Positions 2,846-61,381 of a stretch of DNA of 64,000 nt are shown here, piece after piece. A program made the translations under genes and the position numbers. Under the pieces are notes generated by a model that was given only the letters and a program-made list of their open reading frames with translations, was not told the DNA's origin and did not search any database. Source of the DNA: Hymenobacter oligotrophus (lineage in GTDB: Bacteria > Bacteroidota > Bacteroidia > Cytophagales > Hymenobacteraceae); the NCBI RefSeq assembly GCF_003574965.1, contig NZ_CP032317.1:558001-622000 (forward strand), in the 5' to 3' direction. How positions within the stretch are numbered: the stretch's first letter is position 1; each line of letters begins with the position of its first letter.

Positions 2846-4024
2846 CTACATCACCAACTGGGGCAGTTGGGCGTCAAACAGCTTGGCAAACTCTTGCGGG
2901 CTCAAAATGTGGCCCTGCTTTTGGGCGTTGTTGGCCAGGTTGTAGCCCCACTCGGCGGCGGCCATGCGCTGCGCCGGGGTGCCGTGGTGCCCGTCGCTCC
3001 CAAACGAACAATCGCCGATGTTGAAGAACACATCCAGGAACAAGCGTACGCGCTTCCACTGCATGGCGGCGCCGCGGGCGTGCGAGAGGTAGTACGCCGA
3101 GTAGGCATCGGCCATTAGCTCGGTGCGGCGGGTTGCGGCGGGGCTTTCTTCCTCGCCAAATAAGTTAAGCTGAAACTGAATTTGGTGGCCAAACTCGTGG
3201 GCCAGAATGGCCTGCGGAGCCACGTCGCCGAAGCCGATGGCGGTGTAGCCTTCCATAATGCCGTCGCCCATCACGATTTTGTCCGGAATGGTGGCGAAGG
3301 GCGGGTAATCGAAGCCCTGGAGCGCGAAGGCGTTGAATGAGAAGATCGGGTGGTTGCCGTCGCGGTACTGCGGAATCTGATCGGCGAGCAGCGCTACAAT
3401 CTGGGCCAACGTAGCGGCGGTGGCTTTGTCTACGCCGTAAACCGCTTCGTACGTTTTGGCAATTTTGGCTTGGTCGAGCAGTACGTTGCCGTGCATGGCC
3501 ACCATCACCATCTGGCCCGATTCAACCGTCCAGAAACGACGCAGGTCCTTAAACGATTTGGTGAGGCGCTGGCTGTACTCGCCGTTTTGGCCGAAGGCCT
3601 GGTTGGCCGAGCTGTTCTCGAACACGAAAGAGTAGTACGAGGGCAGGTTCAGCATATCGTAGTTGAGCGCGTAGGTAATCACACGCCCGTTCCAGTCGAA
3701 AAGCTGCCCGTCGAGCCACCGGTTTAGGGGCGTGCTGTCGTCGCAGGGGGTAGGCTCAACGGCCAGCAGGCGCCGGGCCAGCTCACGGTACTGCGGATCG
3801 GTTTGCACCAGCAATGCCGAGCGTTGCTGCAATTTGGCTTCAACCCCGGCGGGCAACGAGGCCCGCAGCTCCTCAATACGCTCGATGGCAGCCGCCGTGG
3901 AGAGCTGGGCCGAAGAGGAGGCCGTAACCGCGGGCGCAATCGTGCTATCCGCTTCTTTCTGACAACCCGTGAGCAGCGTAAACGAAGCCGCTACGCAGGC
4001 CAACAAAAGCTTAACGTTTTTCAT
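2846..4024 (-). CDS. Lipoprotein, putative neutral zinc metallopeptidase
   Basis: 392 residues. The N-terminus is a lipoprotein signal with lipobox LLTGC (Cys about residue 21). The C-terminal half has a zincin site, AILAHEFGHQIQFQL, followed by a Glu/Asp helix (TELMADAYSAYYLSHA) and near the end HGTPAQRMAAAEWGY. That order (HExGHxxQ, then E..AD, then HGT..QR) resembles the YpfJ/PF04228 neutral zinc metallopeptidase layout, so a surface or periplasmic metalloprotease is the best guess. HEFGH fits HEXXH, so the two His ligands and the catalytic Glu are present. The N-terminal 150 residues are not recognised. Its substrate is unknown. Confidence 0.72.
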   Translation of the reverse strand: MKNVKLLLACVAASFTLLTGCQKEADSTIAPAVTASSSAQLSTAAAIERIEELRASLPAGVEAKLQQRSALLVQTDPQYRELARRLLAVEPTPCDDSTPLNRWLDGQLFDWNGRVITYALNYDMLNLPSYYSFVFENSSANQAFGQNGEYSQRLTKSFKDLRRFWTVESGQMVMVAMHGNVLLDQAKIAKTYEAVYGVDKATAATLAQIVALLADQIPQYRDGNHPIFSFNAFALQGFDYPPFATIPDKIVMGDGIMEGYTAIGFGDVAPQAILAHEFGHQIQFQLNLFGEEESPAATRRTELMADAYSAYYLSHARGAAMQWKRVRLFLDVFFNIGDCSFGSDGHHGTPAQRMAAAEWGYNLANNAQKQGHILSPQEFAKLFDAQLPQLVM

Positions 4025-4367
4025 ACAAACGGTTAGGAGGGTGAAATAATGGGTACAGAAAGGGTAGGCCGGTTGTGTGCCGTTGGCACAACCGGAAGCT
4101 TACAAATACTGGTGCGGTAGTCCTAAGGAAAGGATCAGTTGCTCTAAAGTATAATTAAATCTAAAAACTTCGCAGTTAAATATTATTTATATGGCTGTTT
4201 GGGATGCAAGCACCCGGTGTCGGTTCGGGTCTGCCGATGCGTGAAGTTTTGTTGCCTCGCAATTCGCCAAGCCTGGCCGAGCAGCCCCGTACGGCCCAGC
4301 TACGCCATTTGGGCATTATAATTGCCGCACGATAGGCGCGGCATGTCCGCATTCCATAGCTCCGCCC
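4025..4367. other. Intergenic region, no gene seen
   Basis: This 340-bp stretch lies upstream of the lipoprotein gene and holds its promoter by position. It is AT-richer than its surroundings around 4130-4195. A short open frame at 4176-4451 (-) has no family features and non-typical composition, so I do not call it. Confidence 0.5.
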
Positions 4368-51580: not shown

Positions 51581-51756
51581 AAGGAGAGTAGGGGAGAAGT
51601 GCTGGGAAAACAACTGCAAGAGGCAGTCCGCCGGGCTTTATTCTGCCGGGCAAGCTGCAAAGTTGCGCAAGCCCAGCCGAATTTGTTGCAGCCCAACCGC
51701 AGCGTACCGCGCCCACACAACCCAGCCGGCGCAAGCGTAGTACATTGCACTACGCT

Positions 51757-52506
51757 ATGCCCGATAACACCCCCTTTCGCCGCCCCGACCTGCTGCGCCT
51801 TTCGTACGACGATTACCGCGCCCTGCCCGCCATTGCCAACTCCGATCTTTCGAAGCTGCGCGACGCGCTCAACGGCCGGCCGCGGCGCGAATCGGGAGGC
51901 AACTCGGCCCTGAGCTTCGGCACGGCATTTCACACGGCCCTGCTCGAGCCCGATCAGTACGTGCCCAGCTACCCCGTGGTAAACGACACGCTGGTGTGGT
52001 GGCTGGTGGAGGGCGTGCGCCTGCGCGACGACCTGCGCGAAATGATTGACAACGGCGTGGCCGAGCCCAGCTGCGTGTATACCGAGCCCATTACCGGCAC
52101 CATGTGCAAGCTGCGCGCCGATTTAGTGTACGACGTGCCCGGCGAGCCTTACACCATCATCGACTTCAAAACCACCATCGCCCGCGACTACCACCACTTT
52201 GTGGCGCAGTGCTCGGGCTACGATTACGACCGCCAGGCCGCGTTTTACTCCGATGCGCTGCGGGCGGAACGCTTCTTGCTGGTGGGGGTGCAGAAGGTAG
52301 AGCCCTTCCACGTGTTTGTGTTCGAGGTACCGCCCCACATGCTCGAAGAAGGCCGCGCCAAGTACCTGCGGTTGCTACGCCTGCTCGACCCCAGCAAGCT
52401 GCCCGATTACCTGCACCCCTCCGTGCGCGAGGTGGTGTTGGAGCTGGGCCACACCCCGCCCGAGCAAGAAGACGACCCCGACCCCACCCCCGAAATGCCC
52501 GCTTAA
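51757..52506 (+). CDS. PDDEXK-type (RecE-like) exonuclease
   Basis: 249 residues from ATG at 51757. The opening YDDYRALPAIANSDLSKL and SFGTAFHTALLEPDQY are typical of the PF12684 'PDDEXK-like' group, with the H in AFHTALLEP. Catalytic residues are in LRADLVYD and IIDFKTT, followed by the Q-x-x-x-Y motif RQAAFYSDAL. Such enzymes degrade dsDNA from ends for single-strand annealing in phages. No RecT-like annealase is adjacent. It may be a domesticated phage gene. Confidence 0.82.
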   Translation: MPDNTPFRRPDLLRLSYDDYRALPAIANSDLSKLRDALNGRPRRESGGNSALSFGTAFHTALLEPDQYVPSYPVVNDTLVWWLVEGVRLRDDLREMIDNGVAEPSCVYTEPITGTMCKLRADLVYDVPGEPYTIIDFKTTIARDYHHFVAQCSGYDYDRQAAFYSDALRAERFLLVGVQKVEPFHVFVFEVPPHMLEEGRAKYLRLLRLLDPSKLPDYLHPSVREVVLELGHTPPEQEDDPDPTPEMPA

Positions 52507-52563: not shown

Positions 52564-53319
52564 ATGCTTAAGCGAGATTTTCTGAAGAACGGTTTGCTGA
52601 CGGTTGTTGGCGCCATGGTAAGCCCCAGCTTGCTGGCCCACGCCCGCGACGAAAAGCTGTTGCGCGAAGCCCGCGCCACGCCCATTGCCGATGGCCCCTT
52701 TACGCTGCCGCCGCTGCCCTACGCCAACGATGCGCTGGAGCCGCACATCGATGCGCGCACCATGGAAATCCACCACGATGCGCACCACAAAACCTACGTG
52801 TCGAAGCTAAACGAAGCCGTGGTGGGCAAGCCGCTCGAGAAAATGTCGTTGGCGCAGCTGCTGGCCTCGGCCAGCAAGCAGCCCGATGCCGTGCGCAACA
52901 ACGCCGGCGGCCACTGGAACCACTCGTTTTTCTGGCAGCTGATGGCCCCCAAGGGCAGCGGCCAGCCCACCGGCGAACTGGCCGCGGCCATCGCCAAAGA
53001 CTTTGGCTCGTTCGATAAATTCAAGGAGGAGTTTACCAAGGCTGCCACCGGCCGCTTCGGCTCGGGCTGGGCCTGGCTGATCCACGACAAGAAAGCCAAC
53101 AAGCTAGCCATTACCTCCACGCCCAACCAGGACAACCCCCTGATGGACCTGCCCGGCATTCAGCGCGGTACTCCCATTATCGGTCTCGATGTGTGGGAGC
53201 ACGCCTATTACCTCAAATACCAAAACAAGCGCCCCGACTACGTATCCGCTTTCTGGAACGTGGTAAACTGGAGCGAAGCCGGCAAACGCTTCGACGAAGC
53301 CCGCAAAGCCAAAGGCTAA
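52564..53319 (+). CDS. Fe/Mn superoxide dismutase with N-terminal export signal
   Basis: 251 residues. The first 35 residues ([18 protein letters not shown]) look like a signal peptide, so the enzyme is probably periplasmic, unlike most SODs of this family. Metal ligands are His in the first helix ([13 protein letters not shown]), His in [13 protein letters not shown] and Asp and His in [12 protein letters not shown]. The GGHWNH and FGSGWAWL motifs are family-wide; the DNPLMD segment is closer to Mn types but metal choice cannot be fixed. It is monocistronic with a terminator after it. Confidence 0.93.
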
Positions 53320-53376: not shown

Positions 53377-53445
53377 GCTGCTTTAGTACTGATGGTCTTA
53401 TTGCAATGTTGAATTATTAATCAGAAAAATATTTATCAATAATTA

Positions 53446-53475
53446 TTTGCATTAAAAATCAAACTCCATACTTTG
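53446..53475 (+). promoter_or_regulatory. Promoter of the asnA leader
   Basis: TTTG (53446-53449), a 19-nt spacer and TACTTTGG (from 53469) closely match the Bacteroidota promoter TTTG-N19..21-TAnnTTTG, with one position off. Transcription would start near 53482, about 25 nt before the leader peptide ATG. Confidence 0.7.
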
Positions 53476-53505
53476 GCAACACCAAACGCAATCAAAGCGC
53501 TTCTC

Positions 53506-53580
53506 ATGCTTCAGTTCGCCAATAGCTTCAATAATCAAAATCGGAATAATCAATTCCGACGAGGAAGGCTATTGGTCTGA
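53506..53580 (+). CDS. Asn-rich leader peptide of the asnA attenuator
   Basis: A 24-codon frame from ATG (53506) to TGA (53580), too short for normal gene finding. It reads MLQFANSFNNQNRNNQ and then eight more residues. Six of 24 codons are Asn (AAT at 53521, 53530, 53533, 53539, 53545 and 53548), an extreme share, with CAA Gln codons between. It lies before asnA and ends at the arms of a terminator system, which fits a peptide whose translation senses charged tRNA-Asn. The peptide itself is unlikely to have another role. No strong Shine-Dalgarno is seen, as is normal in this phylum. Confidence 0.8.
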   Translation: MLQFANSFNNQNRNNQFRRGRLLV

Positions 53581-53642
53581 TGTACAGACGTAAAATCATT
53601 AACTGATTTCAATAAGCCTTCCAAATCCGGAAGGCTTTTTTT
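53519..53642 (+). promoter_or_regulatory. Transcription attenuator for asnA (segments 1-4 and terminator)
   Basis: Segment 1 (53519-53529, CCAATAGCTTC) pairs with segment 2 (53564-53575, GAAGGCTATTGG, one bulge). Segment 2 (53563-53570, GGAAGGCT) can instead pair with segment 3 (AGCCTTCC, 53615-53622). Segment 3 (53614-53622, AAGCCTTCC) pairs with segment 4 (53629-53637) followed by seven T residues (53636-53642), a terminator. A further hairpin (53541-53559, TCGGAAT/ATTCCGA) sits inside 1:2. Stalling at the Asn codons would cover segment 1 and free segment 2 to block the terminator; full translation to TGA would cover segment 2 and allow termination. This is the classical trp-type logic, inferred from base pairing. 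Confidence 0.85.
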
Positions 53643-53779
53643 CGCCCATACGCGGCCGTTTCAGGGTTTAATACACCGAAAAAAACATAGCGGTTTTTCG
53701 GCCTGGCGAAGCCTTGTCTGTGCATTTATAATTCCGAAATACAAACCAATTTCTTAAATCCAAAAACCACACATCTCGC

Positions 53780-54817
53780 ATGGAAACAACCCTTGCCCCC
53801 GCCAAAGCCCTGAGCCCCGCCGCGCTGCTCCAAACCGAAGAAGCCATCGGCTTCGTGAAGGACACGTTTGCCCGCGAGCTAGCCCGGCAACTGCAGCTTA
53901 CCAAGGTGTCGTCGCCGATAGCAGTGCTCGACGGCACCGGCATCAACGACGACCTGAACGGCGTGGAGCGGCCGGTGTCGTTTCCCATCAAAGCCCTGGC
54001 CGAGCGCCGCGCCGTGGTGGTGCACTCCTTGGCCAAATGGAAGCGCCTGCGCCTGATGGAGCTGGGCATACCCGCGGGCCGCGGCATTCTCACGGACATG
54101 CGCGCCCTGCGCCCCGACGAAGATTACTCGCCCATTCACTCGATTTACGTCGATCAGTGGGATTGGGAAAAGCACATTTTGCCCGAGCAGCGCACGGTGG
54201 CTTTTCTGAAGGAAACTGTGGAAAAAATTTACGACGCGCTGCGCACCACCGAGCTGCGCGTGGCCGAGGAATACGCCGACGTGCTGCCCGTACTGCCCGA
54301 GCAAATCACCTTCATCCATGCCGAAGAGCTGTTGCAACGCTACCCCACGCTCACCGCGAAGGAGCGCGAAACCGCCGCGGCCCGCGAGTACGGCGCAGTG
54401 TTTATTATGGGTATTGGCGGCGAGCTGAGCCACGGCGAAATACACGACGGGCGCGCCCCCGACTACGACGACTGGAGCACCGAAACCGCGCCCGGCCTGC
54501 GCGGCCTCAACGGCGACATCGTGCTGTGGCATCCGGTGCTGCAATCGGCCTTCGAGGTGTCGTCGATGGGCATACGGGTGGATAAAGCAGCATTGCGGCG
54601 CCAGCTGGAGCTACGCAGCTGCCCCGAGCGAGCGGCCCTAGGTTTCCATAGCCTGCTGCTCGAGGGGCAACTCTCCGAAAGCATTGGCGGCGGCATTGGG
54701 CAGTCGCGGGTGTGCATGTTTATGCTGCGCAAGGCGCACATCGGGGAGGTGCAGGTAAGCATCTGGCCCGAGGCCGTGCGGCAACAGCTAAGCAGTGCCG
54801 GCGTGGCGCTGCTGTAA
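53780..54817 (+). CDS. asnA: Aspartate-ammonia ligase (asparagine synthetase A)
   Basis: 345 residues, near the E. coli length of 330. It shows the AsnA pattern: an N-terminal helical stretch (EEAIGFVKDTFARELARQL), VSSPIAVLDGTGINDDLNGV, then HSLAKWKRLRLMELGIPAG, SIYVDQWDWEK, the class II synthetase-like GELSHGEIHDGRAPDYDDW, SSMGIRVD and the closing GGGIGQSRVCMFML. It makes asparagine from aspartate, ammonia and ATP. The gene lies 137 bp downstream of a terminator within its own leader, which carries an Asn-rich peptide, so its expression probably follows asparaginyl-tRNA supply. It is followed by a terminator at 54838. Confidence 0.96.
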   Translation: METTLAPAKALSPAALLQTEEAIGFVKDTFARELARQLQLTKVSSPIAVLDGTGINDDLNGVERPVSFPIKALAERRAVVVHSLAKWKRLRLMELGIPAGRGILTDMRALRPDEDYSPIHSIYVDQWDWEKHILPEQRTVAFLKETVEKIYDALRTTELRVAEEYADVLPVLPEQITFIHAEELLQRYPTLTAKERETAAAREYGAVFIMGIGGELSHGEIHDGRAPDYDDWSTETAPGLRGLNGDIVLWHPVLQSAFEVSSMGIRVDKAALRRQLELRSCPERAALGFHSLLLEGQLSESIGGGIGQSRVCMFMLRKAHIGEVQVSIWPEAVRQQLSSAGVALL

Positions 54818-61280: not shown

Positions 61281-61381
61281 GTTTTTATATGGTCAGGACT
61301 TGGCACCGTTCCCGGGAGTAACCCCGTGGGTGGTTGCCGGCGCTTCAGGGAGCCTGTCTCTCCACGCCTCTGTATAAAAAC
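61281..61381 (-). ncRNA. SAM-I (S-box) riboswitch
   Basis: On the minus strand the RNA runs from a P1 stem (GTTTTTATA, 61381-61373, pairing with TATAAAAAC, 61289-61281) through GTGGAGAGACAGGCTCC, CTGAAGCG, CCGGCAACC and GGTGCCAAGTCCTGACC. These are the S-box conserved core, including the GGCAACC and GGTGC..A.TCC blocks and the K-turn region. It lies upstream of the ATP-grasp/monooxygenase genes. S-box RNAs turn genes off when S-adenosylmethionine is plentiful. The expression platform is not obvious. Confidence 0.9.

Follow-up and report, generated by a model that had tools for sequence, protein, structure and literature searches.

In the 64,000-nt stretch of DNA analysed here (the window), asnA is preceded by a short frame rich in Asn codons and by a terminator hairpin. 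This raises the question of whether asnA is regulated as in the trp, his, leu and thr systems, the leaders of which (trpL, hisL and others) are ribosome-mediated attenuators. Judging from the comparison of relatives and from modelled folds, the region is very probably a ribosome-mediated transcription attenuator by which asnA is controlled according to how much charged Asn-tRNA is available.

Layout of the asnA leader region

The features of the region are as follows.

53446..53476, + strand: promoter-like site TTTG-N19-TACTTTGG (read from the sequence; TAn2-3TTG is similarly placed in relatives)
53506..53580, + strand: predicted leader peptide, MLQFANSFNNQNRNNQFRRGRLLV and stop (ATG at 53506, TGA at 53578-53580)
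53519..53529, + strand: segment 1, CCAATAGCTTC (pairs with 53564-53575; helix 1:2 covaries in 58 relatives)
53541..53559, + strand: hairpin within the leader frame that takes in parts of Asn codons 12, 14 and 15 or the whole of them (folding)
53563..53575, + strand: segment 2, GGAAGGCTATTGG (i.e. GGAAGGCT(ATTGG) from 53563; its spacing to the last Asn codon is conserved)
53593..53609, + strand: small hairpin in the interval between segments 2 and 3 (folding; 81.5% of cells paired in relatives)
53610..53622, + strand: segment 3, CAATAAGCCTTCC (core AGCCTTCC, 53615-53622; 2:3 duplex of -18.1 kcal/mol in the window)
53614..53642, + strand: terminator hairpin 3:4 with U tract (terminator scan, 53614-53637, and folding; kept in 58/58 relatives)
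53629..53637, + strand: segment 4, GGAAGGCTT (3' arm of terminator 3:4)
53780..54817, + strand: asnA, aspartate--ammonia ligase (TIGR00669, 405.9 bits, cut-off 292.8, E 1.3e-121)

Direct reading and translation of the window DNA placed the leader of 24 codons, its six AAT codons, segments 1-4 and the terminator where the original prediction had put them. The Asn codons are numbers 6, 9, 10, 12, 14 and 15 of the leader, all of them AAT (53521, 53530, 53533, 53539, 53545 and 53548), and the leader is thus enriched in codons of the amino acid made by its target gene, a recognised mark of amino-acid attenuators. The promoter-like spacing that had been claimed is also present, with TTTG at 53446-53449 followed by 19 nt and by TACTTTGG at 53469-53476. 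Seven T had been claimed after the terminator stem (53636-53642); the T run is there, but only five of the seven follow the stem and two lie within it. By sequence and predicted pairing, the antiterminator and the intrinsic terminator are mutually exclusive. The leader folds at -47.2 kcal/mol, against a shuffle mean of -28.2 (sd 3.6, z -5.3), and none of 200 shuffles was as low.

A scan for E. coli-type sigma-70 promoters gave no promoter. Of the 58 relatives described below, 43 have the sequence TAn2-3TTG, which we take to be a Bacteroidota-like promoter consensus, 12-45 nt 5' of the leader ATG, versus 8% of shuffles. Within the window genome asnA is found at one place, as are asnB and asnS over their family cut-offs.

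Conservation, coding signal and pairing in relatives

AsnA was found in all eight genomes of the genus and in 67 of 204 of the family; further afield, it was present in 14 of 194 genomes sampled from the order and in 21 of 395 sampled from the phylum. Of the 67 family loci, 8 are from the genus of the window and 50 from a second genus of Hymenobacteraceae, 58 together. When these relatives were compared, as the original prediction had proposed, all 58 asnA loci of the two genera proved to keep an Asn-rich frame, segments 2, 3 and 4, and the terminator. Each frame carries 5-11 Asn codons (345 AAT and 108 AAC in total), and in 47/58 leaders the last Asn codon starts 15 or 16 nt from the first base of segment 2 (range 4-19). 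At L073 the leader frame reads through the terminator, while at L009 and L038 its stop codon directly adjoins segment 3. The Asn leader is absent from the nine other asnA loci of the family, which belong to two further genera and encode AsnA proteins 57-62% identical to that of the window. Nor was it found at other asparagine genes, i.e. at any of 29 asnB loci (29 of the 33 places over the cut-off, with the region taken at L269 off by 72 nt) or any of 13 asnS loci examined. Frames that contain Asn but are weaker, at L012, L014 and L204, are not counted as Asn leaders here. Taken as sequence comparison, the conservation at asnA and the absence from asnB and asnS strongly support the reading of the region as an Asn attenuator.

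A covariance model built from the 58 leaders and run on the 204 family genomes gave 69 hits. Of these, 63 are strong (E 4e-14 or better): the 58 asnA loci plus five hits in genomes where AsnA had no match (see below). Two of the six weak hits (L253, L258) are Thr/Ile leaders; at the other four (L254-L257) no Asn-rich frame was seen.

That the frame is translated is predicted from its signature of selection. In equal-length pairs among the 58 relatives pN is 0.19 and pS 0.47, giving a pN/pS of 0.40 compared with 1.20 and 0.97 in the other two frames, a contrast that is descriptive as the pairs are non-independent; by this measure the leader frame is under protein-level selection. Specificity for Asn was examined with all twenty residues by requiring at least five of one residue in 12 together with a terminator, across 205 non-redundant loci, three short upstream regions being excluded. 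In the two genera Asn passes at 57 of 58 loci and every other residue at none, the one miss presumably being L073, with its frame ending past the terminator. Elsewhere Asn passes at 11/144 (including L089, from Hymenobacter gummosus) and each other residue at 2/144 at most. Similarly, 76 of the 217 real upstream regions of asnA (a set with some redundancy) had an ATG frame with at least five Asn in 12 residues together with a terminator, versus 2 of 2111 dinucleotide shuffles of upstream regions.

The original prediction had proposed a check for covariation of segments 1-4. Helix 1:2 does covary: 85.1% of its cells are paired, both sides have changed at four of its eight pairs, and the 29 cells changed on both sides compare with 7.7 in shuffles (0/500 as high) and at most 5 for slid partners. 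Further pair types in this helix are no more numerous than in shuffles (167/500), and two of the eight pairs often fail; on this comparison segment 1 is the weakest part of the attenuator. In helix 2:3, 98.5% of cells are paired and two pairs have changed on both sides (36/500 shuffles as high), while 3:4 is paired in 94.1% of cells and shows no covariation above that of shuffles. Near-invariance of 2:3 and 3:4 would be expected if segment 3 has to fit two partners, but taken alone it does not count as evidence. Most of the invariant bases are located in the competing arms and the Asn-coding hairpin, within which, by eye in the alignment, changes of AAT to AAC are accompanied by CTA to CTG. 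The small hairpin at 53593-53609 has zero both-side changes among relatives. RNAalifold, applied to the alignment of the 58 leaders, returned mainly the terminator and two small hairpins, and no pair with changes on both sides.

Predicted switching and rival explanations

The following steps are proposed for the attenuator. When asparagine is plentiful, the ribosome would pass the Asn codons and move onto segment 2, so that 3:4 pairs and the transcript ends some 160 nt from its predicted start. If charged Asn-tRNA became scarce, the ribosome would stall at the Asn codons over segment 1, and segment 2, thereby freed, would pair with segment 3, blocking the terminator and allowing asnA to be transcribed. 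Should there be no translation, 1:2 would form and the terminator would stand. In this scheme the stall, the termination and the asparagine response are inferred; how the predicted pairings depend on ribosome position was computed as follows.

In folds of the window leader with a modelled ribosome, P(terminator) is 0.97 without a ribosome and 0.97 with one at the stop codon, and drops to 0.00-0.10 when the A site holds Asn codon 6, 9, 10 or 12. With Asn codons 14 or 15 in the A site it returns to 0.97, because the model allows segments 1 and 2 to re-pair behind the ribosome. Across the 58 leaders, full-length equilibrium folds without a ribosome have the terminator as default (P>0.8) in 55; once a ribosome is placed on the stop codon, P(terminator) exceeds 0.8 in 45. 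With the first Asn codon in the A site, mean P(terminator) is still 0.74. Only 32/58 leaders switch fully in these equilibrium folds, a full switch being defined as P(terminator) <0.5 at some Asn codon and >0.8 with the ribosome on segment 2.

Nascent RNA was also folded for the 58 leaders, with the transcript ending at segment 3 and the 2:3 antiterminator scored out of 8 pairs. The mean score is 7.1-7.6 pairs with the ribosome before the last Asn codon and 6.7 at that codon, then 2.8 two codons further on and 0.1 three codons further on; in long frames, 13-14 codons past it, the score climbs once more. A ribosome at the stop codon leaves 2:3 with a mean of 3.6 pairs, since segment 2 is free again where frames are long. 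Most relatives form 2:3 even when no ribosome is present, at a mean of 6.2 pairs, which makes segment 1 look weak in many of them, and stalling gains two or more pairs of 2:3 in only 14/58.

Three other explanations of the region may be weighed against this evidence. A superoxide dismutase gene ends at 53319 on the same strand, 295 nt upstream of the terminator stem, and the stem could be its ordinary terminator, with the Asn-rich frame nearby owing to chance. This has a negligible probability in view of the conservation in 58/58 loci, the coding signal, the residue control and the Asn frame that is found ahead of asnA in related genomes. An aptamer-type riboswitch for asparagine or another ligand, to which the short frame would be incidental, would account for the strong structure and the terminator, but sits poorly with protein-level selection on the frame and with invariant bases that lie chiefly in the competing arms and the Asn-coding hairpin. 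Rfam likewise has no family at gathering score for the leader element, and we consider a riboswitch very improbable.

The Asn run could instead be a nascent-chain arrest or slow-translation sequence, in which case the switch would sense something other than Asn-tRNA, for example general translation speed. The peptide is indeed conserved past the Asn run (e.g. LFRDWKAIAP and similar), and some tandem second leaders (see below) have Pro-rich ends (NNNSPPPGGED). The conserved residues after Asn are, however, encoded by the hairpin and segment 2, so that constraint on the RNA can explain the conservation of the peptide. The distance from Asn codons to segment 2 is held at 15 or 16 nt in most leaders though leader length varies, and the product of the target gene makes asparagine, and we therefore regard an arrest sequence as improbable and sensing of Asn-tRNA by attenuation as the preferred reading.

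Distribution, asnA-less genomes and known systems

Some asnA genes of Flavobacteriales are preceded by Asn leaders. An Asn-rich leader with a terminator stands before asnA in Vaginella massiliensis (L114), a Myroides strain (L115) and a Bacteroidales bin (L095), these being three of 75 non-Hymenobacteraceae loci within 80 loci listed of at least 591. Sampling of the Myroides family gave seven further loci (L179-L183, L186, L187), which with Myroides itself makes 8/23 asnA loci, and in the Vaginella family sample 1/18 passes, namely Vaginella. At L095 and L180-L183 two successive Asn-rich leaders, each with its own terminator, precede asnA. The second of these often ends in a Pro-containing sequence (SPPG, SPPPGGED), and at L182 and L183 its frame extends through its terminator. 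Among 16 hand-examined attenuators outside the 58, antiterminator pairing beats 95% of mononucleotide shuffles in 14. It is weak in the second leader of L182 (p 0.46) and not significant at L023 (p 0.057), which has a long Asn-rich frame and a long branch in the AsnA tree. Automatic choice of the terminator gave p 0.07-0.11 at 4/18 loci (L023, L182, L186, L187), and terminators set by hand gave 0.013 for L186 and 0.030 for L187.

A tree of AsnA was made by a quick method from 146 rows, with the two genera thinned to nine rows and eleven duplicates dropped; it omits the nine leader-less family loci and other short loci. One group of 35 rows (SH-aLRT 97) holds most of the attenuated genes together with 18 unattenuated ones, while the placement of L182, L183 and L023 near this group is unsettled. 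Going by well-supported branches, the single-leader type must have changed at least twice and the tandem type at least three times. One old origin of the attenuator, followed by losses, is possible.

The five strong covariance hits in genomes without AsnA (G458, G509, G521, G525 and G527) deserve separate mention, as AsnA was found neither in these genomes nor in their 5 kb loci (L248-L252). The upstream neighbour is the same as in the window; that of L248, where the attenuator lies at 3976-4121 on the minus strand, is 68% identical to the window protein of 51745-52506 (BLAST, one of the five). Two of the five attenuators have six Asn codons and the others seven or eight. Across the promoter stretch these five loci have a mean pairwise identity of 0.69; the value is 0.86 for the leader frame and 0.82 for the terminator, then 0.49 for the spacer behind the terminator and 0.79 for the hairpin region that follows.

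A hairpin with the conserved inner motif GGYTYGGCGGCCG is found 43-119 nt past the end of AsnA at 21 distinct asnA-bearing loci of one genus, 12 of which belong to the set of 31 formed by L001-L010 and L030-L050. The five asnA-less genomes are of the same genus and carry this hairpin as well. In all, the GGYTYGGCGGCCG hairpin occurs at L040 (2539-2585) and 25 other loci. Its lower stem shows, by eye, changes on both sides between groups, and the L040 copy has no Rfam match near threshold. The full motif is absent from 1,084,258 bases of other DNA (the window and L259-L348, with 800 kb from two genomes of that genus), in which a shorter form occurs once, in a different context. Retention of attenuator and hairpin around a fast-changing spacer suggests selection on a transcript that lacks asnA. 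This conservation is the ground for supposing that the attenuator also controls a small RNA, i.e. the former 3' end of the asnA mRNA, asparagine-controlled and outliving its gene. We hold this to be rather unlikely; the plain alternative is a relic in slow decay, with an ordinary terminator.

In comparison with known systems, Rfam release 15 has no family at gathering score for the leader element in the window and 13 loci, the best sub-threshold match being Phe_leader (27.7 bits vs 55, E 0.01). The T-box gave no match at gathering score in the window or the 13 loci, nor at E<=1 in 53440-53780, and the same holds in the window for Bacteroid-trp (RF01692; none at E<=1 in 53440-53780). A SAM riboswitch (RF00162, 68.3 bits) lies elsewhere in the window, at 61282-61380 on the minus strand. 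Leaders of trp, his, leu and thr share with that of asnA the codons for the product amino acid, the U tract and, as predicted for asnA, the competing pairings 1:2, 2:3 and 3:4; the asnA leader differs in its Asn codons, in the hairpin overlapping them, and in the tandem arrangement of some relatives. T-boxes bind uncharged tRNA directly, and in Clostridium acetobutylicum they reportedly control asparagine and Asn-tRNA genes. Such an Asn T-box also makes control of asparagine genes dependent on tRNA-Asn, whereas the asnA leader instead has a frame predicted to be translated. Bacteroid-trp functions as a Trp leader motif and belongs to the same phylum, with Trp in place of Asn. It is listed in PMC2864571.

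Two of the weak covariance hits (L253, E 1.2e-4; L258, E 8.7e-4) are Thr/Ile-rich leaders upstream of a bifunctional aspartate kinase/homoserine dehydrogenase gene, with an attenuator-like GGAAGG/CCTTCC. They resemble the asnA leader in coming from the same bacterial family, in the GGAAGG at the leader end and in a CGCCTTCC/GGAAGGCG terminator, and differ in their Thr and Ile codons and in their target. Tandem attenuators that respond to different signals, ATP and proline, are described for the mgtCBR leader of Salmonella (PMC3641672). Like the tandem asnA loci this leader has two short frames, one of them rich in Pro codons, but its frames answer different signals while both tandem asnA leaders are Asn-rich. 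Clues of leader-peptide attenuation at amino-acid operons are given for Flavobacterium psychrophilum, asparagine being absent from the main text (PMC9723704); leader-like short frames are mentioned for Bacteroides (PMC7366714), and asparagine does not appear among the actinobacterial attenuators described in PMC1262725. An asparagine attenuator of asnA was found neither in Rfam nor in searches of the open-licence literature. The proposed mechanism is of the trp/his/leu kind, and it is for the asparagine specificity that no earlier report was found, priority being unproven.

If the proposed reading is true, asparagine would join the list of amino acids for which ribosome-mediated attenuation acts as a sensor, and the Bacteroidota would gain an asparagine-sensing RNA. 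The distribution of the attenuator would offer a natural set of cases on how attenuators change, double up and persist past the loss of their gene, and with the tandem pairs one could test directly what a cell gains from sensing one signal twice in series.
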